Source of the DNA: Triglochin maritima
Taxonomy: Eukaryota; Streptophyta; Magnoliopsida; Alismatales; Juncaginaceae
DNA: 64,000 nucleotides
Direction of reading: 5' to 3'
Assembly: GCA_963682175.1 (NCBI GenBank)
Contig: OY821771.1
Coordinates: 42,552,201 to 42,616,200 of the forward strand
The position numbers were made by a program, and so were the translations under genes. The notes below the pieces were generated by a model that ran no database searches, was not told where the DNA came from, and was given only the letters and a program-made list of their open reading frames with translations. Below, piece after piece: positions 15,106-55,230 of this stretch (positions are counted from its first letter, which is position 1; each line of letters starts with the position of its first letter).

Positions 15106-15224
15106 TTAAGAATGACATTGGTAATGTTTGTATTTTTACATGTAAATAGTTTGTGAACTGAATATGTAAACATTTTGTACATGTAAACCAAAAAATAAAC
15201 AAAACTAAAAATATCTTTGTCTGT

Positions 15225-24449: not shown

Positions 24450-26597
24450 TGTTAGAACCCTAACCCTAGATTAGGATTAAACTTGGATTAGAGGAGGATT
24501 AGGGTGGCTTTGCATGGGGTTGTGTGGGTGCATGGGGAAGTGGGGATTGCAGGTGTCTGCATGGGAAGGTGAAGGGTCGGTCACTGTAGCAACGGGTTTT
24601 AATAAGTCCCCCTCCTTTTCTTCTTTCATCTTCTTTCTCATTTCTCCTTCCTTCCCTTCCTTGCTGGTGCGTGTGGTGGCAAGCAGCGGAGGAGGAGACC
24701 GGAGATCGCGCGGCGTGAGGCGTGCGGAGTCGAGCGCGCGGGGAGATCACCGGAGGCGACGTGCGTGAGCGGAGCTCCGGCATTTCGTCGTAGTGGTTGA
24801 GGTATGCCGCTCCTTAGTGTGGTTTGTTTATTACCCTCATGTGAGGGATGCGTTGGTCGAGTCGGGGGAGGTCGGAGACCTCTCCGGCGACGCGTTTCTT
24901 CTAAAAACCTCGGCTGGCGCGAGGTTGAAGACGACCAACGGTCGACCGGACCCTTCGGGCGGTCGACCGTTTTAGCACTGTTTGCCCGACTTTAACCTTC
25001 ACCGGTCGAACGATGCCTTTGGGCAGTCGACCGGTAGTGCATTATTGCTGGTGAGTTGGGATTTTCCTACCTGTTATCGGTCGACCGGTCCTTGTTGTGT
25101 TCGACCGGAACTTAAGTGTACCTGTTAGCTTGCATGTTTTGTTCGACCGATCGTTGGTTGTTCGACCGATTATATGACTTAGAATAATAGGTTGACCCTG
25201 TCTGTTGTCGGTCGACCGAGACCCCTGAGTCGGTCGACCGATAGAGTGGATTTCTATGTTGACCAGACTCCGGATTTTGACCTCGTTCGGTCGACCGGTT
25301 TTAGACCCTTGTTCGACCGTTAGGGGTTCTGTTTTGAGCGCAACGGTAGACCGTTTTAGGAGTACGGTCGATCGATTCCTTCCTGGAACCGGTCGACCGA
25401 ATCACCTCTTCCGGTCGACCGTTTGGGCCCAGGACAGAATTCCTGGTTCCCTTTTGAACGCCAACTTTGTCCACGGAAACCCGTGTCCTCGCCTTGGGCG
25501 TGAGCCGGGAGGTGACGGTGGGCGCGTGATGCGTGCCTGCCCAGGGACCGCCGTTGGGAAGAGTGTGGGTGTTCGGGACGCGTCACCTCCATGTATGGAC
25601 CGTGACCTTGAGTTGATTGTTGGCACCTTGTAGTATAGCAGGCCTGAGGGATCACGGATCCCAGTGTTGATGTTGTGCGGGCACGCAACTGGCGTTGGGT
25701 GAGGTGACTACCGGCCCACGGGCTACGGAGGTCGCTGCCCTGCTTTTATAGCGGCGCGGTTGGTGTTCGCGGCTCGAGGAGCCTGATGACCTGGCAGACT
25801 TCGGTCTGGTTTTGTCCGATGCTGTGCCGGACTGTTGTGATGGACCACCGATGCTGTGCCGGTGATGCCGCCGAGGTTGTGCCGGCGATGGTGATTGTTG
25901 AGCCGAGGCTGTTCCGGCTATGTTGTTTTCCTCGGCTGGGCACCTACCGAGATGATGTTGTTATACCTTCCGGGCGACGGCCCCGTTGGTCCCTGTGGCC
26001 CCGACCACTGAGATTTACAGATCTGTTTCTATCGGCGCGTAGACGTGACAGAGGCTCCCTGCCGAACCCTTGAGTAGTGTAGCTGCGTGTGGGGGGTGCG
26101 ATGTTGCGGGCTACTAGACTGCATGTGCCTGCAGTAGGTCTCCTCGGGAGACCCGATGATTGATTGTCGGACTGATGTCCTGTTTTACCCTTCGGGGGAA
26201 CTGTTTTACTTTCTGTTGATGCCATGACATGCCACTAGTATGATAGGTTCATTATGTGATGCATGCATATAGGTGAGTTGGCATACGGGGTTTCCTTCTG
26301 GAAACTCAGGCATCGTTGTTATATATTTTTCAGGACCGCAGTAGGTCCAGTTGGGTGGTGATCGGCGGGGACGCGCATTTTGGAGTTGGATCCTCTTCTC
26401 GGGCCGCTGAGGTCGACATGATTACTTTTTATCCTCTGTTGTCGTTTTGCTGTAATCATGTATCTTTTGATAAACTCTGATGTATTTTGGTGCACCACTT
26501 TTATGATTTATGAGAAGTAACAGTCCCGCCTTTGATTATTGAGTTGATTGTCTTGATTATTATTTTTTTAAAATTTCCGCTGTTTCGGGATGTTACA
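24450..26597 (+). repeat. 5' LTR of the Ty3 element
   Basis: It starts TGTTAGAACCC and ends GGGATGTTACA. From about 24938 to 25430 it holds around sixteen copies or near-copies of GGTCGACCG. A TTTTATAG TATA-like word follows at about 25743-25751. The rest is GC-rich and has no coding sense. Confidence 0.95.
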
Positions 26598-26600
26598 ACT

Positions 26601-26612
26601 TGGTATCAGAGC
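26601..26612 (+). other. Primer-binding site of the Ty3 element
   Basis: TGGTATCAGAGC, complementary to the 3' end of initiator tRNA-Met, begins three bases after the 5' LTR. Confidence 0.93.
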
Positions 26613-26722
26613 GGTCGATTCCTATGCGGTTCCCAATGAAATCACCCTTGTAGTAATAGGACTCATGCATTTTATCTTTAGCATGCATACATGGCTGAAG
26701 TGGTGTTTGTTTCTTCTGTCAG

Positions 26723-31162: not shown

Positions 31163-31173
31163 GTTGGGAGGAT
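31161..31173 (+). other. Polypurine tract of the Ty3 element
   Basis: AAGTTGGGAGGAT directly precedes the TGTTAG start of the 3' LTR, as expected for plus-strand priming. Confidence 0.85.
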
Positions 31174-33322
31174 TGTTAGAACCCTAACCCTAGATTAGGA
31201 TTAAACTTGGATTAGAGGAGGATTAGGGTGGCTTTGCATGGGGTTGTGTGGGTGCATGGGGAAGTGGGGATTGCAGGTGTCTGCATGGGAAGGTGAAGGG
31301 TCGGTCACTGTAGCAACGGGTTTTAATAAGTCCCCCTCCTTTTCTTCTTTCATCTTCTTTCTCATTTCTCCTTCCTTCCCTTCCTTGCTGGTGCGTGTGG
31401 TGGCAAGCAGCGGAGGAGGAGACCGGAGATCGCGCGGCGTGAGGCGTGCGGAGTCGAGCGCGCGGGGAGATCACCGGAGGCGACGTGCGTGAGCGGAGCT
31501 CCGGCATTTCGTCGTAGTGGTTGAGGTATGCCGCTCCTTAGTGTGGTTTGTTTATTACCCTCATGTGAGGGATGCGTTGGTCGAGTCGGGGGAGGTCGGA
31601 GACCTCTCCGGCGACGCGTTTCTTCTAAAAACCTCGGCTGGCGCGAGGTTGAAGACGACCAACGGTCGACCGGACCCTTCGGGCGGTCGACCGTTTTAGC
31701 ACTGTTTGCCCGACTTTAACCTTCACCGGTCGAACGATGCCTTTGGGCAGTCGACCGGTAGTGCATTATTGCTGGTGAGTTGGGATTTTCCTACCTGTTA
31801 TCGGTCGACCGGTCCTTGTTGTGTTCGACCGGAACTTAAGTGTACCTGTTAGCTTGCATGTTTTGTTCGACCGATCGTTGGTTGTTCGACCGATTATATG
31901 ACTTAGAATAATAGGTTGACCCTGTCTGTTGTCGGTCGACCGAGACCCCTGAGTCGGTCGACCGATAGAGTGGATTTCTATGTTGACCAGACTCCGGATT
32001 TTGACCTCGTTCGGTCGACCGGTTTTAGACCCTTGTTCGACCGTTAGGGGTTCTGTTTTGAGCGCAACGGTAGACCGTTTTAGGAGTACGGTCGATCGAT
32101 TCCTTCCTGGAACCGGTCGACCGAATCACCTCTTCCGGTCGACCGTTTGGGCCCAGGACAGAATTCCTGGTTCCCTTTTGAACGCCAACTTTGTCCACGG
32201 AAACCCGTGTCCTCGCCTTGGGCGTGAGCCGGGAGGTGACGGTGGGCGCGTGATGCGTGCCTGCCCAGGGACCGCCGTTGGGAAGAGTGTGGGTGTTCGG
32301 GACGCGTCACCTCCATGTATGGACCGTGACCTTGAGTTGATTGTTGGCACCTTGTAGTATAGCAGGCCTGAGGGATCACGGATCCCAGTGTTGATGTTGT
32401 GCGGGCACGCAACTGGCGTTGGGTGAGGTGACTACCGGCCCACGGGCTACGGAGGTCGCTGCCCTGCTTTTATAGCGGCGCGGTTGGTGTTCGCGGCTCG
32501 AGGAGCCTGATGACCTGGCAGACTTCGGTCTGGTTTTGTCCGATGCTGTGCCGGACTGTTGTGATGGACCACCGATGCTGTGCCGGTGATGCCGCCGAGG
32601 TTGTGCCGGCGATGGTGATTGTTGAGCCGAGGCTGTTCCGGCTATGTTGTTTTCCTCGGCTGGGCACCTACCGAGATGATGTTGTTATACCTTCCGGGCG
32701 ACGGCCCCGTTGGTCCCTGTGGCCCCGACCACTGAGATTTACAGATCTGTTTCTATCGGCGCGTAGACGTGACAGAGGCTCCCTGCCGAACCCTTGAGTA
32801 GTGTAGCTGCGTGTGGGGGGTGCGATGTTGCGGGCTACTAGACTGCATGTGCCTGCAGTAGGTCTCCTCGGGAGACCCGATGATTGATTGTCGGACTGAT
32901 GTCCTGTTTTACCCTTCGGGGGAACTGTTTTACTTTCTGTTGATGCCATGACATGCCACTAGTATGATAGGTTCATTATGTGATGCATGCATATAGGTGA
33001 GTTGGCATACGGGGTTTCCTTCTGGAAACTCAGGCATCGTTGTTATATATTTTTCAGGACCGCAGTAGGTCCAGTTGGGTGGTGATCGGCGGGGACGCGC
33101 ATTTTGGAGTTGGATCCTCTTCTCGGGCCGCTGAGGTCGACATGATTACTTTTTATCCTCTGTTGTCGTTTTGCTGTAATCATGTATCTTTTGATAAACT
33201 CTGATGTATTTTGGTGCACCACTTTTATGATTTATGAGAAGTAACAGTCCCGCCTTTGATTATTGAGTTGATTGTCTTGATTATTATTTTTTTTAAAATT
33301 TCCGCTGTTTCGGGATGTTACA
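31174..33322 (+). repeat. 3' LTR of the Ty3 element
   Basis: It matches the 5' LTR along its whole length by eye, with one extra T in the T-run near 33287. It has the same GGTCGACCG cluster at about 31662-32154. Confidence 0.95.
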
Positions 33323-33839
33323 ATCAATCATTACTAATATATTAAAATTTTACAATTACATGCTAAACATTACAAACTAGAAAAGATAAACACAAGCTAA
33401 ATAGTAGAGAAAGAGTTACAAGCTAAATTACATGCTAAACATTACAATTACATGCTAACATTAGAACCAATGACTGCACAAAAAACATGCAAATGGTTCT
33501 GATTTATTTTGTCAAATAGTTGAAACCAAAATATGTCCTAGTTGAGTATATATCTAAATTGAACTTGATCAATTTCTACGATAAATGAATACTCACATTA
33601 ATAAAATATAAATTAGAACAAAAGGACTAAACCTACAAGGCATGATAACAAGTCTACTCAAACTATAACATGACATAAGTTTATTTCAATGTGTAGTTCT
33701 GGTTGTTATTTTTTTTATGAATTTTGATTCTAAAACATTTTATTGGATATCACACTTTATGGCATGATAATAAGATATGTTAGACCATGATTTTGTGAAG
33801 TATTTATGAAATCCTTAAATCTTTTTATTATGTCGTAAT
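33323..33839. other. Short spacer between two LTR elements
   Basis: AT-rich DNA with TSD ATCAA at 33323-33327 and TSD GTAAT at 33835-33839. No gene is recognised. It and the flank left of 24450 were contiguous before the Ty3 insertion. Confidence 0.5.
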
Positions 33840-33940
33840 TGTTGGGATTCAAATCACTAAATCCCCCGAGATGGTCACTTAGGAATTTTCTCGAACTCCT
33901 GTCGTGTACAACACAAATACGACCACCAATTTGTGGAAAC
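33840..33940 (-). repeat. Old copia 3' LTR, first piece
   Basis: It starts TGTTGGGATTCAAATCAC and matches 45574 onward (TGCAGGGTTTTAAATCAC...). It is cut at 33940 by the nested gag-only element, whose TSD GAAAC is the last five bases. The LTR resumes at 39273. Confidence 0.9.
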
Positions 33941-35439
33941 TGTAGGATCGTGTGGGTTATGGGTTCACTAATCACTTTTAATCTAATCCCTAACTAATCA
34001 AACAATAAACGCAGCGGAAACAATTTAAAGACTAGTAGGGAAATAACATGCAAACCACAAGAAGACACGGCGATTTTATAGAGGTTCGGCACCCCACCCG
34101 GGTCCTAGTCCTCTCTTGTAAGCTCCGCTCGACTCCGCGAGCTCCGCCTACGTCTTCACTAACCACTCCCCGTTCCGGGCCGGGAGGGAACGCCTTTACA
34201 CCACAAGCAACGCGAACAACCCTCGCTTGCTTGAATTCTTCCTCTCACAATCCGAGAGGGACACTTCGGGCTTTCACCGAAGTCATTGCTTCTTTTGACA
34301 ACACTTGTAACTGAGTGTGATTCACTCTCTAATTGAGCACACTTTGAGTAGGATGAGTATATGATCAAATGTGTGAAGTTTAGGCTTAAAGAGTGTAGAA
34401 TTGGGAGCTTTGAGGATTGAGGTTTCTCTCTAATGTATTGAGACAATTGGAGTTGGAGAGTTGTGTTAACAACAAGTCTTGATCCTCTATTTATAAGCTC
34501 CTAAGGTATTCTAGCCGTTGGGGATAGATTTGATTGGTTTTTGTGCAAGATACACAAAACAGAAAATCGGGCTGCAAATCTGTCCAGAACCGGTCGACCG
34601 AAACTAGTAAACCGGTCGACCGTTAACTTGATTTCAAAGAGAACGGTCGAACAAAAGAATATTCGGTCGGACAAACGAGCTAGAACTTAACTCTACTTAA
34701 GTGAATCGGTCGAACCAAAGTATGGGGCGGTCGACCGATAAGGGGATTCGGTTGAGACAAAGGTCAATCGGTCGAACAAGAAATGTGTCGACCGATAGCA
34801 GGGAATTTGGTTTCTGAAAATATGTTCAACCGGTCGATCGAAACAAGGTCTTCGTTCGACCGGTTACCGAATGTATTTTGGGGTTAAGTTTTGTTTTATA
34901 CGAATACGACCGTTATAGGAATACGACAAGAAAAACGGTCATATTAAAATCCGGGATCGGTCGACCGAAAAGGTAGAACCGGTAGACCGGTAAAGTTCGG
35001 TAAAATCACTGTGGAGAGTCTGTTATAAACCGGTCGAACTGAGAACTGGTTCGGTCGACCGGTTCACACAGGAAATCTGGGTTTAAGTTTATAAGTGATT
35101 TCCGACTAAGGTTTGGGTGATCTAATGAAGTCCAAATAATGTGAAATTTCGTGTGTGACTTCTATAGGGAACCTATTGTGTATGTGATTGGTTTTTAACT
35201 CTTGTATGCTCAATTTACACATGTTCCTAAGACTCAAAATAAAATCAAGATTACAAGTCTTCATTTAGCTTTATTACAAATCTTGACTTGATTTCCTTCC
35301 TTCCATGAGTCTTGATCACCTGTAGAGGTTAGCACATGCAATATATATGCAATGCAATATGTGTGCTACTCTACATCATCATAATTAAGATTAGGTTAAT
35401 TAAATCATCAAAACCTAGATTAAGGCCAAAAAGCCAACA
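33941..35439 (-). repeat. 3' LTR of the gag-only element
   Basis: In element orientation it starts TGTTGGCTTTTTGGCC and ends ACACGATCCTACA. A GGTCGACCG cluster lies at 34590-35065 and a TATAAATAG box (minus strand) at 34487-34497. Confidence 0.93.
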
Positions 35440-36072
35440 ATCTCCCCCTTTTTGATGATGGCAACCTATATCTTAATTCTATCTAAATACATGGAATTTG
35501 TATATGTAAACTATGCATATTAATGCTCCCCCTATGGATGTGCATAGTTTTTGTTCAATTTTATTGTCAAATTCCAAGTTACCCACTTAATTATCTCTCC
35601 CCCTTTGACATCCATCAAAAATAATAATTATTTAAGACTTTAAGCTTAGAATTTTGATGTTTTGTAATGAAGTTGCTCCCCCTAAATTTTGCACTTCATT
35701 ACTCTAATAAAAGATATAACATTTAAGCTCCACCTATCAATAAGGCTAAATGGAAACAATGAGTATGATTCAAGTTAAGTTCATTTAAGTTTCAACTTAA
35801 GCCTTATTCTAACATCCATTTAAAATTTGACATTTAGAATCAATGGATGTGATAAATGATTTGCAATGAATAGGGATAATGATTTTCAATGAATTGAACT
35901 ATATGATATGTCAATTAAGCATGTGAAGCTAGATTAGAGCTAATTTAACATGAATTGTATAGATAGGAATTTATACCGATGTTGAATTTGAATTTAGCTC
36001 CAATCTCATTTGGTGATGCAACCGGATTTGAATTTGACTCTTGAGCTCACCCGGTCACCACCAATCTCCTCC

Positions 36073-37715
36073 TCAAGCTCCTACAAGAGTAGATTTAGGT
36101 ACCCAAACAACTTTGGGTCCTTGAGTGTTAGCTTTGGGAATCCACACCATTTTGGTTTTGGGAGCCCACACACTTGAGGAAGTAGACTTAACAAATAAAT
36201 GCTTGCCATTTAATGTAGTATGAGATACATGGTTTTTTAATTGAACATTGTATCCTAAACCATGTTTAGCTAGGGATTGTCTTTGACTACCTAAAAGCAT
36301 ATCAAGCATTTTTGTTCCTTTAGTGAACATTTCTAGATCTTTTCTTAATTGCATATTTGAAACTTTAAGATCTACATGTTCATCAATAACGGGTGTTTTA
36401 CTTAGACTAGCAAGTGATGATTCATTTGATTCAAGTCTAGCAATCACCTCATTCTTTTCATTCATGATTAATTCAATTTGGCATTTGAGATCATTTATAG
36501 TTTTTCTAGCATTTTTGTTCTTTTCACAAATAATCTCATATTGTTTAACTAAATCATGAAATGCATTTTGAAGCTCATCATGTGTATAATTTTCATTATT
36601 TGCACTAGAGCTTGAGCTATCACTATAATAAGACTTAGTTGAGCATGAATTACTAGAACAAGAGTTAGAATCTACCTCACTTTGATCTTCAATAGCCATG
36701 AAGCATGAGTGAGCCACTTCTCTTCTACTTTGCAAGGAAGAAGACGATGATGATGGTGATGAAGAATCATCCCATGTAGCCTTGTGTGCTTCCTCCTTCC
36801 TTTCTCTTCTCTTGCTCTTCTTTTCTTTTCTTTTCTCCTCTCCCTTCTCTCCTTTTTCTTCTCCCTTTCTCTTCTCTCATTTTCACTCTCCTCCCTCTCT
36901 TTTTCTTTTTCTCTTTTCTCACTTCTTCTACCTCTTCTTTCATTCTTTTCTCCTTTATCCCTCTTGAGGTATTTGAAGAAGTCTTGGGCAAAGACCTCAA
37001 TGTCCTCTTCTTCCACCCTCCTTGGCTCATCAAAATTTGCATGTAATGCCACCACGGAGTTTTTCTTTGATGCTTCCTTCTCTCTTCGATGACTCAATTG
37101 GAGCTCATAGGCCATGAGATTTCCAATGAGTTCCTCCATCTTCAATTTTGAAAGATCGTGCGATTCTTCGATTGCCACGACCTTGTCTTCCCAATCGTTG
37201 CTCAATGACCGGAGGAATTTTCGAGTCATCTCTCCTTCATTTATCCTTCTTCCAAGAATCAAAAGAGAGTTAGTGATATCGGTGAAGCGAGTGTTCATGT
37301 CGCTTATGTTCTCACCGATTTGCATAGAAAATATTTCATATTTATGCATGAGGAGACTTATCCTAGTTTCTTTGGTTTTACTATCACCCTCATGATGCAT
37401 TTGTAACCTATGCCATATTTCATTTGCACTTTCACATCCCCTAATTCTATTGTATTCTCCCTCATTAAGGCCACAATAAAGAATATTCATAATTTTTGAA
37501 TTCATTTCAATTTCTTTCATTTGAGCCCTAGATAGAGAATCTAAATCATCTTCATTTGGGGGTATGTATGGATTTTGAATAAACTTCCAATACTTAAGGT
37601 CATTTGATATTAAAAAGATTTTCATTCTATTTTTCCAATAATCATAATTTGACCCATTAAGCAAAGGAGGTCTTGTGGTGCATAAACCCTCTAAGTGATT
37701 AGATGTTGAAGCCAT
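36073..37715 (-). pseudogene. Copia-type gag (UBN2-like), broken by a frameshift
   Basis: The ATG at 37715 opens a frame with MASTSNHLEGL, then PPLLNGSNYDYWKNRMKIFL and FTDITNSLLILGRRI, typical of copia gag (UBN2/retrotran_gag). A long purine-rich Arg/Lys/Glu stretch lies at about 36780-36970. The following conserved part (WDDSSS-like, SRREVAHSCFMAIEDQ, a coiled coil, and a C-terminal PKTKMVWIPK-type end at 36073) is in another frame, so at least one frameshift lies inside the low-complexity part. No CCHC knuckle is obvious. The C-terminus stops just where copia protease would normally begin. Even if read through, the product would be a structural protein only, and mobility would need enzymes from another element. 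Confidence 0.8.
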
Positions 37716-37754
37716 GCTAAAATTACGGTAAAGTAATGAAATTTAGCTAACAAG

Positions 37755-37766
37755 GCTCTGATACCA
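37755..37766 (-). other. Primer-binding site of the gag-only element
   Basis: The plus strand reads GCTCTGATACCA, the reverse complement of TGGTATCAGAGC, two bases from the 5' LTR edge at 37769. This sets the element on the minus strand. Confidence 0.92.
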
Positions 37767-37768
37767 AA

Positions 37769-39267
37769 TGTAGGATCGTGTGGGTTATGGGTCCACTAAT
37801 CACTTTTAATCTAATCCCTAACTAATCAAACAATAAACGCAGCGGAAACAATTTAAAGACTAGTAGGGAAATAACATGCAAACCACAAGAAGACACGGCG
37901 ATTTTATAGAGGTTCGGCACCCCACCCGGGTCCTAGTCCTCTCTTGTAAGCTCCGCTCGACTCCGCGAGCTCCGCCTACGTCTTCACTAACCACTCCCCG
38001 TTCCGGGCCGGGAGAGAACGCCTTTACACCACAAGCAACGCGAACAACCCTCGCTTGCTTGAATTCTTCCTCTCACAATCCGAGAGGGACACTTCGGGCT
38101 TTCACCGAAGTCCTTGCTTCTTTTGACAACACTTGTAACTGAGTGGGATTCACTCTCTAATTGAGCACACTTTGAGTAGGATGAGTATATGATCAAATGT
38201 GTGAAGTTTAGGCTTAAAGAGTGTAGAATTGGGAGCTTTGAGGATTGAGGTTTCTCTCTAATGTATTGGGACAATTGGAGTTGGAGAGTTGTGTTAACAA
38301 CAAGTCTTGATCCTCTATTTATAAGCTCCTAAGGTATTCTAGCCGTTGGGGATAGATTTGATTGGTTTTTGTGCAAGATACACAAAGCAGAAAATCGGGC
38401 TGCAAATCTGTCCAGAACCGGTCGACCGAAACTAGTAAACCGGTCGACCGTTAACTTGATTTCAAAGAGAACGGTCGAACAAAAGAATATTCGGTCGGAC
38501 AAACGAGCTAGAACTTAACTCTACTTAAGTGAATCGGTCGAACCAAAGTATGGGGCGGTCGACCGATAAGGGGATTCGGTTGAGACAAAGGTCAATCGGT
38601 CGAACGAGAAATGTGTCGACCGATAGCAGGGAATTTGGTTTCTGAAAATATGTTCAACCGGTCGACCGAAACAAGGTCTTCGTTCGACCGGTTACCGAAT
38701 GTATTTTGGGGTTAAGTTTTGTTTTATACGAATACGACCGTTATAGGAATACGACAAGAAAAACGGTCATATTAAAATCCGGGATCGGTCGACCGAAAAG
38801 GTAGAACCGGTCGACCGGTAGAGTTCGGTAAAATCACTGTGGAGAGTCTGTTATAAACCGGTCGAACTGAGAACTGGTTCGGTCGACCGGTTCACACAGG
38901 AAATCTGGGTTTAAGTTTATAAGTGATTTCCGACTAAGGTTTGGGTGATCTAATGAAGTCCAAATAATGTGAAATTTCGTGTGTGACTTCTATAGGGAAC
39001 CTATTGTGTATGTGATTGGTTTTTAACTCTTGTATGCTCAATTTACACATGTTCCTAAGACTCAAAATAAAATCAAGATTACAAGTCTTCATTTAACTTT
39101 ATTACAAATCTTGACTTGATTTCCTTCCTTCCATGAGTCTTGATCACCTGTAGAGGTTAGCACATGCAATATATATGCAATGCAATATGTGTGCTACTCT
39201 ACATCATCATAATTAAGATTAGGTTAATTAAATCATCAAAACCTGGATTAAGGCCAAAAAGCCAACA
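37769..39267 (-). repeat. 5' LTR of the gag-only element
   Basis: It has the same length as the 3' LTR (1499 bp) and about twelve single-base differences by eye. The GGTCGACCG cluster is at 38418-38893, and a TATAAATAG box (minus strand) at 38315-38325 lies about 95 bp downstream in element direction. Confidence 0.93.
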
Positions 39268-39272
39268 GAAAC

Positions 39273-39932
39273 CACCAACAAACAATCCACACAACACTTA
39301 TTAGCAATAAACTAATCAAACACAAGCACAAAGGAACAACACACCATATTTTACAAGGTTCGGCAATGATGCCTACGTCCTTGGGGGGTCTCCTCGGGTT
39401 TCTCCTTCTTCATCTGCCTCCAAATCGGAAGTAGTGCCAAGATTATAATAGAGAGCAATATGTCTCTCCAAACTCACAAGAAATCCTTTTAAGAATCTTT
39501 CCAACAATGGTGTCTAAAGAAAACCCTAATGAGATGTGTGAGTTGTGCTTATCTCTTCAAAAACAAAGATTTAACTTCTATTTATACTCTTCAAAAAATG
39601 TGCAGAAACTGCTCGCAACGGTCGACCAGATTCAAGAAACGGTCGACCAGAAATGCTCCATCGGTCGAACGGTTCGCTCCACCGTTCGACCTAAAATAAC
39701 ATGAGTGTTTCTGCACTCCATCGGTCGACCGTTTTACCACAACGGTCGACCAAGGCACTCCATCGTTCAACCTAAAATAACAGTGACAAATTTTGTATAA
39801 AACCGTTGACCGTTTTGCCACAACGGTCGACCACTTCGCCAAAAATGGTTGAACAATTTTCCAAAATGGTTGAACAATTATTGAATTTTCTGCATTTCTT
39901 AATTTTTTATGGAATTGAAGACAATTCCAACA
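39273..39932 (-). repeat. Old copia 3' LTR, second piece
   Basis: This continues the LTR after the nested element and matches 45667-46254. In element orientation it starts TGTTGGAATTGTC. GGTCGACC-type motifs lie at 39618-39838 and a GTATAAATAG box (minus strand) at 39578-39587. An extra block of about 80 bp with two more motif copies distinguishes it from the 5' LTR. Confidence 0.88.
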
Positions 39933-39970
39933 AACTCCACATTGGCTTCGATTCCATCAACATGGACTCT

Positions 39971-42334
39971 TCAACCCTTCTCCCACTCCACCTTGGTCAT
40001 CCTGTCTGTTGGATTCTCTCTCGTATTAATCTTCTGGAGAGTTACCTGACATTCTTCGATCCAATCACGGATCTTGTGGTACCGGACTTCAATATGCTTG
40101 GTCCTCGAGTTGAATGTTTGATCTTTGGCTAAGTAGAATGCACTTTGACTATCACAATACAATTTTGTCACTTCTTGTTCCATTCATAGAGACCTCACCA
40201 AGTCCTTTAACCATATAGCCAACTTGGTGACTTCCACAACCGCCATGTACTCTGCTTCCGTCGTCGACAATGCGGTTTTACATTGGAGAATTAATCTCCA
40301 ACTTATTGGTCCTCCCCCTAGAGTGAACGCAAATCCTGTTGTGGACCACTGTTATCTAGATCACCAGCAAAGTCCGAATCAAGATAACCTTCCACCAGTA
40401 ATTGTGCTCATTCTTTAGTGTACATAAGACCAACATTTATGGTTTCCTTCAGGTACCTTAGCAGCCATTTCATTGCCTCCCAGTGCTCATTTCTAGGGTT
40501 AGCCATGTATCGACTCACCAGGCTAACTGCATGTGAAATGTCTGGTCTAGTGCAGATCATTGCATACGTAATGGATCCTACTGCACTAGCATATGGAATC
40601 CTATCCATATCTCTTTTTTCCGTCTCGGTAGAGGGGCTACACTTCATTGACAACTTGAAGTGTGCTCCAATAGGTGTGACAACATGCTTGGTATCTTCAA
40701 TCTCGAATCTCTCAAGAATCTTCTGGATGTAGCTTTTCTGCGAAAGAAAGACTTCTCTTTCCAAATTTTTCTTTTGATTTTCATACCAAGGATTTTCTTG
40801 GCACAACCGAGGTCTTTCATCTCAAACTCTCTACTCAGTCTTCGTTTAAGATCATCTATATGTTTCCTTTCTTTAGCTGCTATTAACATGTCATCCACAT
40901 ATAGAAGCAAGAATATATTAGATCCATCTTTGAGTCCTCGCAAGTAAACACAACTATCATAGTCACATCGGGCAAACCCATTCTCCAACATGAAGGTGTC
41001 AAACCTTTTATACCATTTCCTTGGCGACTGCTTCACTCCATACAAGGACTTCTTCAACTTGCAAACCATATCCTTCTTGTCTACTACGGTTGTCGCCAGG
41101 TTGCTTCATATAGATTTCCTCTTCTATGTGCCCGTGAAGAAAAATTGTCTTCACATCAATTTGCTCAAGTTCTAAATCATCCATTGCCACCATGGATAGA
41201 AGAACTCTAATCGAGGTGTGCTTTACAATAGGAGAGAAGATCTCATTCTAATCCACCAATTCCTTCTGAGCATACCCTTTTGCCACCAACATTGCTTTGT
41301 ACCTTAAATCCTCATTTGAAGTTGACCCTTCTTTCTTCCGGAAGATCCATTTGCACCCTATGGCGTGCTTTCCTCTTGGAAGCTTCGTTAACTCTCAAGT
41401 CTCATTCTTCTGAAGAGAATCCATCTCCTCAGTCATGACCACCATCCACTTGTCATTGTCCTATTATTCAATTGCCTCATTAAATGTGGAAGGGTCCCCA
41501 CACTCAGATACAAGTGCAAACGCTACACTTGCGTTCTCGTGGCCATATCTTTGTCGTGCCTTAGTAATCCTACTTTGTCTCCTTTAAGCAATACTCTCTT
41601 GCTCAGTTTCTTCCTCTACCTTTGAGTCGATTGTTTCTGCTTGCTGATCATCTTGGCTCGATTCTTCATGAAGTGGTGACTTTCACTTTGATTTCGTTTT
41701 TCTGCATGATTTCATCTGACTTCTCCTCCTTGTTAAGGTTCTTGAGTAACTCAGTCTCATCAAAGACTACATTGCTCCTTACCAAAACTTTCTTATCATT
41801 TGGATCCCAAAGCTTGTACCATTTTACTTTTCTATCAAATCCAAGGAAGATACACTCCTTGGACTCAGAGTCTAGCTTTAAGCGTTGGGCCTCATCAATT
41901 AACGCATATGCTTTGCATCCAAAGATTCTCAACCTTGAGTAGACATGGCACACCCGACCACACCTCTTGAGGTGTTTTCAACTCTAACAAAGATGCGGGC
42001 GAGGTATTAGCCAGATGAGCAGCTAGATCCACTGCTTCAGCCCAGAAGTCATTGGACAAGTTTGCATGTAGTTTCATGCTCCTTGCTCTTTCACACAGTG
42101 TCATGTTCATCCTTTCGGCTACTCCATTTTGTTTAAGGTCTCTAGGAGTAGTGAAATGCCTTTTAATTCCCTCATTCTCACAGAAACATGTCAACTCTCC
42201 TGAGGTTTATTGACCTCCGTTATCTGATCTCAAGTACTTTGTCAACTTTCCTGTACTTTTTTCCACTTGAACCTTCCATCCTTTAAACTTCTCAAACACC
42301 TCAAATTTGTGCTTTAGGAAGTATACCCATACTT
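39971..42334 (-). pseudogene. Copia pol remnant: integrase C-half, RT, RNase H
   Basis: Reading leftward on the minus strand, the piece starts in integrase (YKVWVYF-like, LRSDNGGQ, then GIKRHFTTPRDLKQNGVAER with the catalytic Glu region at about 42110). RT follows at 41193-40640 (VCKLKKSLYGVKQSPRKWY, LLLYVDDMLIA). RNase H follows at 40800-39971 (GSITYAMICTRPDI, KLYCDSQSAFYLA, SRTKHIEVRYHKIRDW). Several stops and frameshifts divide it into fragments at 41953, 41193, 41069 and 40806. It is inactive. Confidence 0.88.
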
Positions 42335-44484
42335 TGTAGGAGTTCGTGTCCCTATGTATATATATTTAAAAAAAAATTAATACAACATACAAGATCGATT
42401 TCATACTTTCAATAATTTTATGTACATAACTTTGTGTTTTATTCTAATATCATGCAACCCTACATTTATTAAAATAAACCACAAATGTAGAATCATACCT
42501 AAAGATTCTCTAAAACCTTTTTGAAGATACGAAATCGTGTTGCCCGTTGAATCGTCCACGGATTTGCCTCCGAGTGTTCACCAAACTCTAAACAAGATTA
42601 GAGAGAAATGAGCTAGCCAATCAATCTCTAATAAGGTTTAGAATCTAGCTAATAACTCCTCTTTGAGCTCCTGAGATTTCTATCTCCTAAACTCAAAATT
42701 ACTAAGAGAATTTCGTGGTGATTAGAGGAGAGATTAATGAGAGAAAGAATTTTTGCATTCACCTTAAACAAGTAGGAAGAGATGCCATTTTATAGGCTCC
42801 CAAAACATCTTCATCAAGAGCTATTCTTTAGCCATGATCCCTTGTTTATTCTCTCCTAAAATTGATCTCTAGTTTTCACATACGCACCCTAAAAATGTTT
42901 TAATTAAATCTGGAATTAATCCACCCATGATTTAATTAATCCCTTAATAATCCAGACAGAATCGTTCTGTTCGGTGAACCGAGAATTACTCGGTCAACCG
43001 AACCATTCAGTTTTAACAAGTGTTCGGTGCACCGTAAGCCAGACGATCGACCGAATCCACATGAGAAAAATTTCCTGGAAAAATTCAGACGAACCACGTC
43101 TTTTACTCGGTCGACCGTTGACCCACCAGAATCTCTCCTCGGACATAGTCATCGGATGACCGTGTCACATTCGGTCTACCGAAATACTCTTTCTCGGTTG
43201 ACCGTTCACACTCGGTTAACCGACCCGATTGTCCAGGCACTCCAGACAATTTTAGTTAACCAATTGTGATTACCCGTTCCCCATTCGGTTAACCGATTCG
43301 AAGATACCCCGGTCGACCGAACCATGAACGGTTCACCGTGTTTGATCCCGATTTTGCCTTTGTCAAATTTTAGATTTATTTCCAACAAAATTTGATCTTT
43401 TGGGGTTTTTAGCAAATTCATATCTTATGTAATATTATTACACCCCATAATATATACATCTCATATGAATTTATTATGATTCTAATTATGTCAATTCTCA
43501 TGACATATTGATTTTATTCATTCACCACATGTGTCATATTTTCACATGAAACCTGACACGTCATATGAACTTAAAATCAAACATCTTGTTTCCAAGTTTT
43601 GTGGTGTGACCTATAGGAGGATCTAAGTCAAATTGGCAAAGATATTAAACACTTAATATCTTAAACTATAAGCGGTATCTAGCTACACATTATAGTTACC
43701 TAATTAACATAGATGTTTTTCTTCCACCCGGACCAATACACGATCCATTTAGTGATATAAGTGCACCACTTGTGTCCGTCCATTGCCTCATGATATTAAG
43801 AATATATACAAAGTAGAAATGTGTCATCTTTGTATTATATCAATTTCTTGATCTCTCTAAGCCAATTATAACTATGTAACTTAACTCAAGTTTCATTGTG
43901 CACATTATAATTTTGCTTTATCAAGGGGTCCATTAATATCATCATTCAATTAAGAGGGGCAATGATAATCGTTTGACTAGCTATCTTTTCCAGCACAAGT
44001 CATGTTCAACCAACTATTGCCTTTATCACTACACTCATTTATAGCTTTTGACAATAATCAAATTAAGCACCTCTTGAGTGAAAAGATATAAGTCTCATAT
44101 CTTAGGATCCAAGACACAGTAAAACATTAATGACACGAAACACAATTTCATAATGTTTTACTTGTTAGGTCTGTTCAATATATAAAAGTAATATTTTCCT
44201 CATTCATATACTCGTGTCGTCAATTATTTGTAGAGCTACAATAATCGATGACCAACACGACAATTTTATCTTGGTAATTAATGTTCCATGTTAATTATCA
44301 TGATTGTGAACAACTTTTGATTTATGTAAACCATTATCTTTTAGAGCTCTATGGTTAAGTACCAAACGTCTCTTCCTTAACACTTCCAAAAGATGAATAC
44401 CATAATCAAGGAACAAAATGCTTGCACATCCAATTCATAATAATTGACATATAAAAGTAAAACTTTTAGAACACATTCCTTTCA
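42335..44484 (-). mobile_element. Solo LTR (2150 bp) inserted in the old copia integrase
   Basis: The block starts TGTAGGAG, ends CATTCCTTTCA, and is flanked by TACTT at 42330-42334 and 44485-44489. Removing it and one TACTT joins the two halves of copia integrase without loss. It holds no coding region, PBS or PPT, so it is most likely a solo LTR left after LTR-LTR recombination. It has a cluster of GGTCGACCG-like words, many decayed to GGTTGACCG, GGTTAACCG and GGTCAACCG, at 42958-43340. A CCTATAAAA box (minus strand) is at about 42785-42796, which suggests minus orientation. Confidence 0.85.
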
Positions 44485-45540
44485 TACTTTCCTTGAGATG
44501 TCGTCTATAAATGTGACGAAATATTCGGCTCCACATTCCTCAAATACTCCAAAATATCCTTTAAACTGTGGATCACCGTCTTGAATCAAATTCTATGTTG
44601 CTTTCTGAAGACCTTGCTTGTGAAGTTGACACAAGCCTTTCTCACTCATATGACCAAGCCTCATATGTCATAGTGTGGTGTCATCTTCGCTATCTTGCAC
44701 GACATTAGCCATCCTATGCCAACTACTGCATCCAATACAAGTTGTCAACCTTGATTCCCTTGATCACCATCATAGCCTCATGACTTCTTTCGAGCTTCAT
44801 TGAATGACCAACAATCATTTTTTCATGTGGCCTTGCTTCTTGCAGTAGACGCACTCCATGATCCTGCCTCTGGACTTTGACCTACCCCTCTCCTTTCCCT
44901 TTGCCTTGCTATAAGATCGACTTTTGTCACTCTGTCCTACTTACAATCCTTCTCCTCTATCAGACAAATTGCTTGAAGGTTTATGTCTTGACTCATGAGA
45001 AGTCAAGACACTCTTCACATCGTTGAGTTTCAAGGTGTTCTTCCCAACTATCATCGTGGTGACTAGATGGTCATACGACTCCAGTAACGAAGTCAACAGA
45101 AGTAACATTGTATCCTCCTCTTCCAGTTTAACTCCCAACTATTTGAGGTCTGCTATGATCTGGTTGAACATCGCCAAGTGATGAACCAATGGTGTGCTCT
45201 TCTTCATTCGAAGTGTGTACAATGACCGCTTCAAGATCAATTTGTTGGTGAGGCTCTTGCCCATGAACCTCTCTTCAAGCTTCTTCCAAAGCTCTTCAGT
45301 CGTGGTGCCAGACACTTCATACGAGATGTCATCATTCAGACAAAGCTTGATGAGTCCCATCACCTTTATGTTCAAAACATTCCAAGCATCATCTGTCATT
45401 TCTTTTGACTTCTTCGACTTCCCGCCAAGTGTCTCCAACAACCCATCAGTTAGGCTCAACAATGCTTTCACCCGCCGCTGCCAAGTTGTGAAGTTACGCT
45501 TGCCATCGAATTTATCCACCCGAAACGACTTTGCATCCAT
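44485..45540 (-). pseudogene. Copia gag and integrase N-half remnant
   Basis: The ATG at 45540 starts MDAKSFRVDKFDGKRNFTTW, a copia gag N-terminus with the conserved FDG and W. Gag continues (YEVSGTTTEELWKKLEERF) to a stop at 45139 and resumes in the same frame (MGVKLEEEDTMLLLLTSL). A knuckle-like CVYCKKQGHMKK lies near 44830 and is followed by a stop. The GAG-pre-integrase motif HMRLGHMSEKGL is near 44640, and integrase AEYFVTFIDDISR (first catalytic Asp region) ends at the solo-LTR insertion. Protease is missing or unrecognisable. Confidence 0.82.
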
Positions 45541-45560
45541 CTTTATCGCTTAACAAAAAA

Positions 45561-45571
45561 CTCTGATACCA
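45561..45571 (-). other. Primer-binding site of the old copia element
   Basis: The plus strand reads CTCTGATACCA, the reverse complement of TGGTATCAGAG, two bases from the 5' LTR. Confidence 0.88.
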
Positions 45572-45573
45572 GT

Positions 45574-46254
45574 TGCAGGGTTTTAAATCACTAAATCCCC
45601 CCGAGTTGGTCACTTAGGAATTTCCTCGAAAACATGTCGTGCACAACACAAATACGACCACCAATTTGTGGAAACCACCAACAAACAATCCACACACCAC
45701 CTATTAGCAATAAACTAATCAAACACAAGCACAAAGGAACAACACACCATATTTTACAAGGTTCGGCAATGGTGCTTACGTCCTTGGGGGGTCTCCTCGT
45801 GTTTCTCCTTCTTCATTTGCCTCCAAATCGGAAGTAGTGCCAAGTTAACAATAGAGAGCAATATGTCTCTCCAAACTCACAAGAAATCCTCTTAAGAATC
45901 TCTCCAATAATGGTGGCTAAAGAAAACCCTAATAAGATGTGTGAGTTGTGCTTATCTGTTCAAAAATAAAGATTTAACTTCTATTTATACTCTTCAGAAA
46001 ACGTGCAGAAATTGCTCGTAACGGTCAAACCGATTCAACAAACGGTCGACCAGAAATGCTCCACCGGTCAAACGGTTCGCTCCACCGTTCAACCTAAAAT
46101 AACATGAGCGTTTCTGCGCTCCATCGGTCGACCGTTTTGCCACAACGGTCGACCACTTTGCCAAAAATGGTTGAACAATTTTCCAAAATGGTTGAACAAT
46201 TATTGAATTTTCCGTATTTCTGAATTTTCTATGGAATTGAAGACAATTCAAATA
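45574..46254 (-). repeat. 5' LTR of the old copia element
   Basis: The 681-bp LTR runs from TGCAGGG to CAAATA. The last bases are decayed compared with the CCAACA end of the 3' LTR. GGTCGACC-type motifs lie at 46019-46165 and the CTATTTATAC complement of a TATA box at 45981-45990. TSD GTAAT follows at 46255-46259. Confidence 0.88.
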
Positions 46255-46259
46255 GTAAT

Positions 46260-49900: not shown

Positions 49901-52057
49901 AGAATTTGCTGTTTGAGTGAATGCCCGAATGTAATTGTCAAAATACTACTCATGATGGTGTTGAGTTTTTCGATTTGCTTGTTTATTTTTTTGGTTTACA
50001 TTGGGGTCCTACCATCTTGCATATCAGTCCATAAGTCTCATAATTCAGTCATTTTCTTACGTTTTGGTCTTTTTGTGTCTCTTTTTCTCAAACATGTTTA
50101 TTCCTGAAACTTAAACATAAAACTCGTTACATAACAATGCTTAGATTCAAAATAGAAGATATAAGACACGAATATATGCATGATATGATGTCAATTTGTT
50201 CGTCGTACATTCATGTGTCGACACCGCTCTCCTCGGTATGGGAAGCTACAATAAACATAAAACACGTATTACTTGAATCACACTCAAGTAGTCAACTCAA
50301 GTCAAAACGCATCATTTCCGAGACTAACTACAAAGGTTTTTAGATAGAAAACGTTAGCCGTTTGATAGAAAAAAGTGGATTTTATTTACAGATTTATGTC
50401 TTCCTTTACCTTCCAATTCCATTACAAACATCATCAAATAAAGGGTTAATCTTCTGTAGGGTTGTATACTTGTTTTCTTAGGCATGTCAAAGATGGCAAT
50501 GGGAATATGATCATATAATCATACAATTTATCTGTTCAAACCAACTAGATGTTGGGCCTCTATTTAGCCCAAAGTTAACAATATACCTGGAGTTTAGACC
50601 CATAGTTCTGTAGTCCAAGGCCTAGGGGCTATATTAAGCCCAGTACAGAGTCCTGTCTTTTACATATTTATAATTTATTTATAAACTTTTGAGATCTTTC
50701 CTTCTGTGTGGCCGACTCTTTTGATTTTCTCCAGAAATAACATGATTGCACCAAACTAATGTTACCGATACAATGAGATAATAATAATTTTCTTTTTGTT
50801 TAGTTTCAATTTAACAGGTTTAATTCTAAATTCATTATGAATTGCATGATTGAACCGGATAATAATCTTTATTTTCTGTTGGGCCAAAACGACAAGGGAC
50901 TTTCAATATACTATCCCGTCCAGTTATAAAAAGCCGAGTCAAGATCATTTTTATGTAAAGCCCAAAACATATAATTTCTCTTTTATGTAAAACCCAAGCA
51001 TTAATTTCTCTTTTAAACATATCTATCGAAACAAAGTTTAGTTTACCGCGCATGAATACTCCTCCTTGGTACACTACACCTTCAACCTTTGTTCGTACAA
51101 GTTAAAACTAAATCACTATCTTCTGGTCGTTTTCTTTTTACTCGGATGTTTATAATTTGGTTCGTTCCCAAGTGGTTCTTACATACATACATTTCCATAC
51201 GTGAAAGTAATAGGTAATATTCTTTCCTATAGTAAAATTGTAGCAACGTGGACATTGCGGAGGCAAAGACTGTTGACCATGCCGGGTCTTAAACAGACAG
51301 CATTGGTGCAATGTCACTACCTTCCAATCAAATTTACATCTTGACCGACACCAACTTGTCCACTTCTACCCCTCTACATCAGATCTCCACGTGAGTCCAC
51401 AACTATTCATCTCCTTACATGACCATGAGTCCATCTGCAACAAACATCTTTAATGTCAATGAGCCCATATGCAACAAACATGACCAATTACTTCACTCAC
51501 TATTACATGCTCTTTCGGCTAACACAACCAGATATTTGTCGGTCGGTGTTGTGTTGCTCCTCAACATCTTTAATGTCAATTCAACCCCTGGAATCTAAAT
51601 CGAACTTACAACATTGTCTAGTTGAGAAGCATACATACAACGATATTCCTTAGTGTTTCTTAATACTAACTTTTCTTTCTATAATTTCTTGTATTTGGTT
51701 TTGTATTGGAGTCCTTGTTCAAACAAAGCACGAGGGTCACGTCGCGTTAACTCCCATGCGACGATATACAGTCATATAGGTGGTGGTGAGACGTTAATTT
51801 AGTTAATTACTATGTACGGACCATGAGTTTGTCCGGACCAAAAGTAGTATAATTGGATCTTGGCACGTGTATTTCAACTATTTTCTTAAATGTATCAATA
51901 TTTCACTGCAAATTATTTAAGTGCACATCTGTCGTTTGTAGTACCCACTCTGAATTGGTTATTGTTGAGAAATTTTTTTAAACCTTTTTGAAACTAAAAA
52001 GGTTCTTTATATTAAATTAAAAAATGAAAAAATGTAAATTGAAAAAACACAACTCTG
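49901..52057. other. Intergenic, nothing recognised
   Basis: AT-rich DNA without recognised proteins, RNA genes or element ends. Confidence 0.4.
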
Positions 52058-53578
52058 TGTAGGATCGTAAATGTGGCTTAGTTCTAATTGATTTTAACCC
52101 TAAACAAACTCTACTTGCTTAACAATCAAAGATGCAGCGGAATTTAAAAACAAAATAAGCAAGCAAAGTAAATATGCAAACCAACAAGAAGGCACCATAA
52201 TTTTTATAGAAATTCGGCATCCCGCCTACTTCCATTCTTGCAAGCTCCATTCGATCTCCCTCGAGCTCCGCTCACGTCTTCACTATCAACCTAGTTCCGG
52301 ACAGAGATTAAGCATTTACAACACAAGCACCACGAACACCCTCGCTTGCTTGATTTCTTCATCTCACAATCCGAGAGAGAATACTTCGGGCTTTCACTGA
52401 AGTCATTGCTTCTTTACAACTGTATATTTAAGTAGATCACTGACTCTCTAACTTGAGCACACTTAGATTAGGATATGGAATTGATCTACGATGTGGAAGT
52501 ATAGCTTGGAGAGTAGGATTTGGGGAATGAAAAACTTAAAGCTTTCTCTTAGGTGTATATGACCAAAGGAATTGGAAGACTTGTCTAATTGTGTCAAGAC
52601 AATACCTATTTATAAGTTCAAAGTGAGTTATAGTCATTGGGATTAAATGTGTAAGTGTTTGTATGATAAACACAAAGTAGTGAAGTGCATGACACAATTC
52701 AACACAAAATAGGTCAATTGAATCGGGTAGACCGGTTGGTCAATTTTGGTTATAACTTAAGTTCACTTAAGTGAACGGTGGAACTAAATATGGGGATTGG
52801 TCGACCATTCTAGGGTTTTTGGTCTGTTAAGAATGGATCAGTCGAACTAGACAAATAGTCAGTTCGACCGGAAACTTCCAGGGACTCCTGGGTTCAAGAA
52901 GAATTTGAGTTTCGGTCGACCAAGGTCTAGGAGACGTTCGACAGGAAACTTCCAAAGTGTTCACAAGGACCAAGAAATGTTTGATCGGTCGACCGAAAGT
53001 TAATTGGCGGTCGACCGGATGTTTGGTAAAAATGAGGTTTTGGGAAATCCGACCATTGTAGAATGTGACAAGTCTAACGGTCATGTGACACGTGTAGATG
53101 GTCGAACAAAAGCACTAAACGGTCGATAGGTTGAACACTAAATGCTGTAACAGAATAAACAACTCAATCGGTCGAACAATGAACTCGTTCTAGTCGACCG
53201 ATTTGGTCATAGCAGTTCAAGATAGGTTTAAGTGTTTTCCGGTTCCAATTTGGGTGATCTATTGAAGTCCAATTGATGTGAAAGATTGTGTGCGACTTCT
53301 ATAGGGATCCTAGTGTGTGTTTAAGTTGATTTTAGCTCAAGTATGCTTAATTACATAATGTTCCTCGACTCAAAAGAAATCAAGATTACATGTGTTTCAA
53401 TATAGCTTTAATTACTTGTCTTGACTTCATTTCCCTCTTTCTTGAGTCTTGATCACCTGTAGAAGTTAGCACAATACAATATCGATGTTATGCATTATGT
53501 GTGTTACTCTATACTAATTATAATTAAGATTATGTTGATTGAATCATCAAAACATAGATTAATGTCAAAAGTCCCACA
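52058..53578 (-). mobile_element. Solo LTR related to the gag-only element's LTR
   Basis: It starts TGTAGGATCG as does 33941, shares blocks such as CCCTCGCTTGCTTGA, CTCACAATCCGAGAGAGA and ACTTCGGGCTTTCAC, and ends GTCCCACA, about 1521 bp long. Flanks CTCTG (52053-52057) and CTCTT (53579-53583) are a 4/5 match to a target-site duplication. It has no internal region. GGTCGACCG-like motifs lie at 52724-53205 and a TATAAATAG box (minus strand) at 52606-52616. It is clearly diverged from the 33941 copy, so it is an older insertion. Confidence 0.8.
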
Positions 53579-53700
53579 CTCTTCTCTTTGCCGCCTTCTC
53601 TCTCCGGCCAATTTCTCTCTTCTCTCTCTTCACATATCTCTATTGTTCTCTCCTCTCTTTTTAGTTATTTCTCCTCTCTCTCTCTCTCTCTCTCTCCAAT
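53579..53700. repeat. CT-rich microsatellite
   Basis: Pyrimidine-rich DNA that ends in a CTCTCTCTCTCTCTCTCT run at about 53676-53696. Confidence 0.85.
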
Positions 53701-54859
53701 GGTTGTTGTCGTCAACGGTGATAGCGGTGGTGATGGTGGTGGTAGAGTGGGAAGGGAGAGTAGGTATTCATGGTGGTGGTAGCGTGGGAGGGAAGGCACC
53801 ACCGGAGAGGGAGTAGTCACCGGGGCGGTAGTGCTGTCCGAGAGAAGGTGGAGGGAGATTTAGGGAGTGAGTTTTTATTTATTTAATATTAAAGACATTC
53901 TCAATTTTAGAAGGTAAAAATTGAACATTTTCCAACAGTAAAAGTTATGGGGTGGGGTACACCCAAATAATACAAGGCTAGAAATCAAATCATACGGGGT
54001 TAACCCAAGCAAATAACCTATGGTTTAATTATTGGTTTGGTAGGCATTTACAAACAAGGCTTCCCAAGGGGAGACCGGAAACACCGAAAGGCAAGCTTTG
54101 ACTTGGAGGTTGCGGTCTCACCGCAAAACACGTAAGTACATTCGCAGACAAACACAACCATACCGAGACCAACCGTGTGGGGGCGCTGACATGCAGCCAG
54201 ATTGGACGTATTTGTTTTATTTCCTGTGTCCCCGCCATGTTAATTATGAATGAATGATTATTATTCATCAAACACCGCAACCTTCTCTCATTTTGATCTT
54301 ACGTTCTTGTTTTTATTTCGATATTCGGATTCTTTTACTATTCAAATGTGTAATGTATATTATTTTTTTGAAGTTCAAATATAATGACGAATTTTCACAC
54401 AAAGTTTTTGTGCCCAGTAGATTACATTGAAATTTGATTACGTGACCATAATTTTAGAGAATGCTACTTTTCCACATTGAGTTGCTTATGATAAACTGAG
54501 ATATAGCCTAGTTTGCTGACCTCTATTTATTATTATTATTATTATTTTATCTCTAATTTCGTTTCTCACTTGTTATGTCAAAGTACTGTTTGCTATTGTT
54601 GAAGAGATGTATTGTAAATTAAAACTTTTGTGGAAGTAGTTAAGTGGATGGTTAAAACGAATATTTAAGATATTACTTCTTAAGAGGATGGCTATGCAGA
54701 AACATATAAACCTAGGTATACTATTGGAATCTTGCATATAGAGCAAATGTCGACATACATGACATGCATGCGAGTCCAAATTAAAAATTACTCTCATAAT
54801 ATTTGGATACATCTCAAATTTAACCATTGTTAGAAAGCTGCCTCGAAAAATCACAAGCA
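53701..54859. other. Intergenic, nothing recognised
   Basis: A short GGTGG-rich stretch is followed by AT-rich DNA with a TTATTATTATTA run at 54527-54547. No protein family is recognised. Confidence 0.4.
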
Positions 54860-55230
54860 TTGGTTGACCAGACACAGTTCGGTCAACTGGTATGCATCTA
54901 ACTTAGTCATATGGAAATTTACTGGAGTGACAAATACCAGTCGGTCCACCATTGCACAGAGTTTTCCTAAGAAGTTACTAAAGCATTAGGTTCAGACGTC
55001 TGATCCCTATTCTGTCGTCCGGATTCGGTCATCCTTCTTCCCAACGATTGACCAAACCCAATTGGATAGTAGAGATAGAAGTTTACTGGAATGTGAAGAA
55101 CAGTTGACCGTCCCTTGGACGGTTGACTGAAATATGGACACGAATAGTTTTCATTAAAGGAATTTTCGACATTCCAAAGCCAATTAGGATTGCCTTAATC
55201 ATCTCTTATAAATATCTATGTTGTTTAGAA
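54860..55230 (+). repeat. Decayed LTR fragment with GGTTGACC/GGTCAACT motifs and TATA box
   Basis: Words such as TTGGTTGACCAG, TTCGGTCAACTGG, AGTCGGTCCACC, CAGTTGACCGTCC and ACGGTTGACTG are spread over 54868-55125. TTATAAATATC follows at 55206-55215. The order, motif cluster then TATA box, copies the U3 layout of the other LTRs in the window. Ends could not be set. Confidence 0.55.

Follow-up and report, generated by a model that had tools for sequence, protein, structure and literature searches.

Clusters of a palindromic motif in the long terminal repeats of unrelated retrotransposons of Triglochin maritima: enrichment, helical spacing and a possible host factor

The stretch of 64,000 nucleotides of Triglochin maritima DNA analysed here (the window, a part of contig C3 in an assembly of 1,063,122,952 bases) contains several retrotransposons whose long terminal repeats (LTRs) carry clusters of a short palindrome, GGTCGACC, which an initial annotation had pointed out. 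This palindrome is enriched, is shared across superfamilies, is helically phased in its common form and is conserved above the spacers that separate its copies.

The first carrier is a Ty3 element on the forward strand. Its left LTR (24450-26598) has a cluster at 24939-25421, with 12 sites that differ from CGGTNNACCG by at most one mismatch, nine of them exact; the cluster of the right LTR (31174-33323) lies at 31663-32145 and its spacing is identical. The BLAST identity of the two LTRs is 99.95% over 2150 bp. The element encodes gag, protease, reverse transcriptase (RT), RNase H, integrase zinc-binding and Chromo domains; the score of the Chromo domain (25.1 bits) equals its cut-off, and the integrase core (rve) remains below its own. 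The Ty3-type order of the domains and the chromodomain at the end of the integrase place this element, as judged from its sequence, among the chromoviruses.

A nest of elements on the reverse strand follows, at 33841-46252. A gag-only element (33941-39267) is inserted in the left LTR of an old copia. Its first LTR (33941-35439) has a cluster at 34591-35061 with eight sites, six of them exact, and its second LTR (37769-39267) one at 38419-38889 with nine sites, seven of them exact. We regard this element as a Sirevirus derivative, because it has four AGGGGGAG polypurine tract (PPT) octamers within 1.26 kb before the LTR, a AGGGGGAG-AT/TG junction, and an inverted repeat around the PPT whose arms, identified by eye, are ATCATCAAAAA and TTTTGATGAT. 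The interrupted left LTR of the old copia consists of a main part (39268-39930; cluster 39619-39833, eight sites, one of them exact CGGTNNACCG) and of another part at 33841-33940, the target repeat GAAAC being seen by eye at 33936-33940 and 39268-39272. The insertion explains the 98-bp match between 33844-33940 and 45578-45675, the latter lying in the right LTR of the old copia (45578-46252; cluster 46043-46155, five sites, one exact). The old copia has an RVT_2 domain at 40644-41105, and a PPT that differs from the Sirevirus type. A solo LTR of 2150 bp (42335-44484) is inserted in its interior, flanked by a TACTT repeat (by eye). The cluster of this solo LTR (42972-43338; 12 sites, of which ten are exact CGGTNNACCG, with 19-bp doublets) is of a second, free-centre form: it has only two exact GGTCGACC, yet ten CGGT-NN-ACCG with a varying centre.

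Two more carriers lie further on. A solo LTR of 1521 bp on the reverse strand, related to the gag-only element (52063-53580, ends approximate), has four sites, two of them exact, at 52725-53017, and more decayed sites extend to 53200. On the forward strand, a decayed LTR remnant (54868-55125) has no exact site, three sites with at most one mismatch and six with at most two, where shuffled sequences have on average 0.06 and 0.75, respectively; the enrichment that had been announced for this remnant is thus real, in the form of decayed sites, while the exact motif is absent.

The window contains 43 exact copies of GGTCGACC, for 0.42 expected, and all but one (at 63484) are within the LTR clusters that had been named; GGTCGACCG, with at most one mismatch, has 148 strand-wise matches for 4.55 expected. 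In each of the eight named clusters, the observed number of sites (at most two mismatches to CGGTNNACCG) was reached by none of 300 dinucleotide shuffles. The enrichment extends far beyond the window: in a random sample of the genome (18 stretches of 10 kb, 180 kb in total), CGGTCGACCG is the most enriched of all 10-mers (57 seen, 0.02 expected) and occurs in five of the 18 stretches, GGTCGACC in six, and the exact CGGTCGACCG is found 359,535 times genome-wide, against 90 for the reversed-pattern control. Counts, 10-mer enrichment and shuffles being all far above expectation, in the window as in the genome, a chance origin of the clusters is rejected, and the clustering of the palindrome in LTRs is confirmed on a larger scale than first stated.

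The initial annotation counted at least five unrelated families. We compared 24 LTR regions with the motifs masked, and they fall into nine groups at a 100-bp similarity threshold, or into six if four inter-group links of 41-93 bp are counted; longer links, of at least 100 bp, were not found. This applies in the window to the Ty3 element, the old copia, the 2150-bp solo LTR, the remnant and the gag-only/1521-bp pair, between whose LTRs the initial annotation had seen no further similarity. The carriers are a Ty3 chromovirus, Sirevirus derivatives, other copias and unclassified LTRs (L009, L015:4762/L025 and L030 being without firm class). The Sirevirus group is made of the gag-only element, the 1521-bp solo LTR, L012, L014, two L016 families, L021, L031 and L032. 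In L012:1468-9491, the succession LTR-gag-LTR-gag-LTR, with a period of about 3.79 kb, forms a tandem of a gag-only Sirevirus derivative. L004, a relative of 82% identity whose right flank resembles, by eye, the PPT of a classic copia, falls into one group with the 2150-bp solo LTR. Another copia, located at about C1:126.3-132 kb, has two LTRs that are 92% identical, with 11 sites per LTR stretch, and gag, gag-pre-integrase and RT domains (the integrase core is below cut-off); the Sirevirus octamer AGGGGGAG was not found in it. There are 8-19 sites (at most one mismatch) per LTR cluster or LTR stretch in 19 of the 24 regions, and fewer in the 1521-bp solo LTR (four), L014 (seven), L021 (five), the right LTR of the old copia (five) and the remnant.

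Among inverted CGG/CCG pairs, the CGG-N4-CCG dyad is outstanding in the 180-kb sample (108 seen, 5.0 expected); lesser excesses are observed for N1 (36 for 8.7), N7 (28 for 5.3) and N11 (19 for 3.3), and that of N1 is partly due to another repeated motif in L009 and L015. This second CG-rich motif, CCGGACCGG, forms dense short arrays at L009:4322-4519 and L015:2589-2800. In the common form (11 clusters), CG occupies the centre of 91 out of 109 sites. In the free-centre form, which is that of three clusters (solo 42972, L016:5257 and L021), only four of 33 sites have a CG centre and 13 dinucleotides occur; CGG and CCG are retained, and so, mostly, are the T and A, while the centre varies. Both forms are found inside the Sirevirus group and inside the solo/L004 group. 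The second base outside the site is A or T in 82% of 125 contexts. The free-centre LTR pair of L016 is young (99.5% identical), and among its centres GT, GG, AT and TA match no TTGAC site and cannot result from simple C>T changes, so that, by what is generally known of these motifs, a plain W-box (WRKY) reading and a CpG-decay reading are both rejected.

The spacing of the sites had been described as irregular, which was wrong. Neighbouring sites pair as doublets, mostly of 20-22 bp in the common form and of 19 bp in the free-centre form. Genome-wide, a distance of 20-22 bp is found in 71,197 exact doublets, one of 26-28 bp in 366 and one of 36-38 bp in 345 (many of the latter, among the matches listed, being 19+19 triplets), and none in the reversed controls. 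The first 100 listed doublets of 20-22 bp have 66 distinct spacers, which form 30 spacer groups; simple tandem duplication is therefore rejected, the spacers being mostly unrelated, yet a class of 19-bp tandem triplets exists.

The larger gaps peak near 32, 42, 52, 63, 73, 85, 95, 103, 115 and 125 bp. When periods from 8 to 14 bp are scanned, the best one is 10.5 bp if the gaps range from 26 to 140 bp (90 gaps; matched by none of 2000 null sets), 10.8 bp if they range from 26 to 100 bp and 10.4 bp if they range from 15 to 140 bp; six of the 20 clusters were dropped from this set as second LTR copies, and the three free-centre clusters were set apart, while on C1 four of 17 clusters were dropped (three duplicates and one single site). 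With one LTR per lineage, four lineages and the doublets included, P is about 0.0003-0.001. Once the doublets are removed, the phasing gives P 0.004 in six LTRs and P 0.00015 in nine C1 clusters; with one common-form LTR per group, which leaves out the remnant and the free-centre LTRs, the median P is 0.0005 and the largest of 40 draws 0.005. The distances from doublet to doublet on C1, in a test that overlaps that of the nine C1 clusters and from which seven entries were dropped as second LTRs, give P 0.00005 and a best period of 10.55 up to 250 bp (28 unique values), and P 0.003 up to 400 bp (38 values). Among single lineages without doublets, P is 0.04 for Ty3 and 0.0002 for Sirevirus, and the phasing is not significant for the old copia and L004. 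We also observe that solo 42972-43338 and L016:5257-5824, which belong to different groups, have the same end gap patterns, 19-34-19 and 24-19, and no spacer similarity beyond short matches that contain the motif.

The motifs are better conserved than the spacers in all eight pairs of families that were compared, and better conserved than the flanks in six of them; the sites had been located on one member of each pair, the first, and the alignment may be biased towards placing motif on motif. The identities of motif, spacer and flank are 0.94, 0.59 and 0.80 for the gag-only element and L012; 0.86, 0.52 and 0.76 for the gag-only element and L014; 0.74, 0.57 and 0.70 for the gag-only element and the 1521-bp LTR; 0.77, 0.47 and 0.71 for the 2150-bp solo LTR and L004; 0.77, 0.67 and 0.75 for L016:5257 and L021; 0.90, 0.82 and 0.77 for Ty3 and L015:8907; 0.59, 0.49 and 0.63 for L012 and L016:2986; and 0.58, 0.43 and 0.59 for L012 and L016:5257. 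Within single elements (four LTR pairs), motif and spacer identities are alike (0.93-1.00).

The clusters were also said to be next to the TATA box, which is correct for the window's LTRs of copia type. In the element direction, TATAAATAG follows the cluster after 95 bp in the second gag-only LTR, after 110 bp in the 1521-bp solo LTR, and after 33 and 54 bp in the left and right LTRs of the old copia. In the Sirevirus group as a whole, the TATA box is 95-110 bp after the last site in six of seven clusters (97 bp in four of them), and there is none near the cluster of L016:2986. In the solo/L004 group the distances are 178 bp (TATAAAA, in the 2150-bp solo LTR) and 181 bp; in L027 the distance is about 76 bp, and no box was found in L026.

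Repeated cis-elements in LTR promoters are known from the tandem U3 boxes of Tnt1-type elements, which are described as family-specific. The kind of motif described here is itself already known: according to Bousios 2010 (PMC2829016), 13 Sireviruses have palindromic repeated motifs (RM), with a CGG-CCG core in all but one, and the RM given for a Vitis Sirevirus is exactly CGGTCGACCG, so that the earlier claim that the motif was undescribed does not hold. In that account the RM are Sirevirus-specific and absent from classic copias, occur in at least eight copies per element with extra copies upstream of the envelope-like gene, and lie upstream of the TATA box; no common factor was found. The present clusters are alike in being made of CGG-CCG palindromes, mostly with about eight or more copies per LTR, rich in CpG and, in most of the copia-type LTRs though not in Ty3, placed upstream of TATA. 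They differ in that they also occur in a chromodomain Ty3 and in a copia that lacks the AGGGGGAG octamer, and are thus not confined to Sireviruses, and in their helical phasing and free-centre form; motifs of Ty3/gypsy LTRs are not discussed in the available portions of PMC2829016.

The LTR palindromes of maize Sireviruses (Bousios 2016, as cited in the accessible part of PMC10760457) also form clusters in the regulatory region of the LTR, with strong RNA folding, but the palindrome is another one (CACCGGACNNNGTCCGGTG) and is stressed as a target of small RNAs; maize Ty3/RLG elements are generally without a structure peak, according to the same source. The plastic 5' CpG islands of Del chromoviruses (PMC4029996) resemble our clusters as CpG-rich, poorly conserved stretches of variable length in the 5' half of the LTR, but a search for the term "palindrom" gave no occurrence in the text of this paper as available, and the eudicot Del elements have no island. 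A literature search, mainly of openly accessible papers and judged largely from their listings, found no recognisable description of the motif across superfamilies or of its helical phasing, and among 34 papers containing CGGTCGACCG, again as judged from their listing, only PMC2829016 deals with plant retroelements. What is new is the presence of the motif in other superfamilies, its helical phasing and its genome-wide scale: a trait reported in 2010 for Sireviruses outranks, in this genome, every other 10-mer by its enrichment in a random sample, and it crosses superfamilies.

We propose that a dimeric host factor probably binds these arrays, the sites being stacked along a single face of the helix; they would serve as an LTR enhancer and be kept by unrelated families. 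A host DNA-binding protein, acting as a symmetric dimer, would read two inverted CGG(T) half-sites that are four bases apart; the arrays, mostly doublets of 20-22 bp, or of 19 bp where the centre is free, set at whole helical turns, would align the bound dimers on one side of the DNA, so that they act jointly as an enhancer of the LTR promoter; and a common dependence on this factor would have led unrelated LTR families to gain and retain the site. The whole-turn spacing, the avoidance of half turns, the fixed half-sites with free centres and the conservation together indicate a dimeric DNA-binding protein working in register. The protein nature of the ligand, the action of a single factor in every family and an origin of the sharing by convergence, not by transfer, are inferred; that the factor activates is suggested by the position of the sites in the LTR and by their retention. 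The initial annotation already had a host factor on a dyad site among its suggestions, and this one has become the best supported, by the N4 dyad, the helical spacing and the conservation in eight of eight pairs; the interpretation given in the initial annotation is, as a whole, supported in part. As to the identity of the factor, a LOB-domain (LBD) protein is only a lead: pairs of inverted CGG half-sites fit a caliper-type dimer as presented in the available text of PMC12461856 and PMC10118128, and the motif is not the LBD-box GCGGCG. Whether such clusters are factor sites, CpG islands or hairpins becomes, with the helical phasing, a sharp and testable claim, that of a dimer working in register, and identifying the factor would open a way to the timing and place of retrotransposon expression in plants.

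Several observations weigh against this proposal. In the Ty3 element and its relative L015:8907, the 500 bp that follow the cluster contain neither TATA[AT]A nor TTATAA nor TATAAG, so that the earlier claim about the TATA box fails for Ty3; a weaker, doubtful box, TTTTATAG, exists in the sequence, and the Ty3 cluster may be downstream of the transcription start. With four lineages and the doublets left aside, the phasing does not reach significance (P 0.33 and 0.12). The free-centre form fits a period of 9.2-9.6 bp rather than 10.5 bp (29 and 12 gaps, which are few), and its 19-bp doublets make a non-integer number of helix turns. The motif identity is not above that of the flanks in two of the eight pairs. 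Last, the four clusters that were folded as RNA are all far more stable than their shuffles (z -7.45, -6.70, -6.17 and -7.10).

This stability favours another explanation, in which the palindromes of LTR transcripts pair and feed small RNAs, or the motif recruits silencing, as proposed for maize Sirevirus palindromes, over whose clusters small RNAs are reported to be in excess (Bousios 2016, as cited in the part of PMC10760457 available). We consider it unlikely. The centres of neighbouring free-centre sites are complementary in none of 17 cases, where chance gives about one and full pairing 17, RNA pairing does not account for the 10.5-bp phasing, and a pure liability should disappear, yet the motifs are retained over the spacers; this conservation also disfavours the shared silencing target that had been named as an alternative. 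The strength of RNA folding did not by itself discriminate between the rival explanations.

It is also rather improbable that template switching or gene conversion carried the clusters from one family to another, their spacing being inherited. Site positions are often shared within groups (eight of nine sites between the gag-only element and L012), and the end patterns common to solo 42972 and L016:5257, as well as the four short inter-group links, would fit such exchanges. On the contrary, the absence of longer links between the nine groups and the 30 spacer groups among the first 100 listed doublets argue against them, and transfer alone leaves unexplained why the motif persists while the spacers diverge. 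The idea that the array is retained for its CpGs, as a methylation-resistant island and not for a specific protein, is very improbable, for although all 15 LTR clusters exceed their flanks in CpG observed/expected ratio (0.93-1.96 against 0.33-0.94) and such islands are known from Sirevirus (PMC2829016) and Del (PMC4029996) LTRs, according to the portions of these papers available, CpG density does not require a single 10-mer, a 4-bp half-site spacer or helical spacing, and the free-centre form loses the central CpG.

Returning to the dimeric host factor, a bolder version is conceivable, which we put forward tentatively and regard as doubtful: a single factor would control much of the LTR retrotransposon load of this genome, Ty3 and copia elements would have evolved helically precise arrays of half-sites independently, and members of at least two LTR lineages would have switched to the free centre and 19-bp doublets, perhaps following a related factor or escaping a competitor.

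Last, we note that the window contains, at 10553-18533, reading frames for FAR1, SWIM, Ulp1-type protease and plant-mobile-domain proteins, together with three arrays of a 22-bp unit around TGTTCGGAATAAG (11690-12322, 13827-15098 and 17083-17826), the first and last of which are mutually inverted. We read this region as a Mutator-like element that has a two-turn array of a motif of its own. The TGTTCGGAA word of these 22-bp arrays is also found inside pairs of CGGTCGACCG that are 38 bp apart, at C1:6140917 and C1:9783912.

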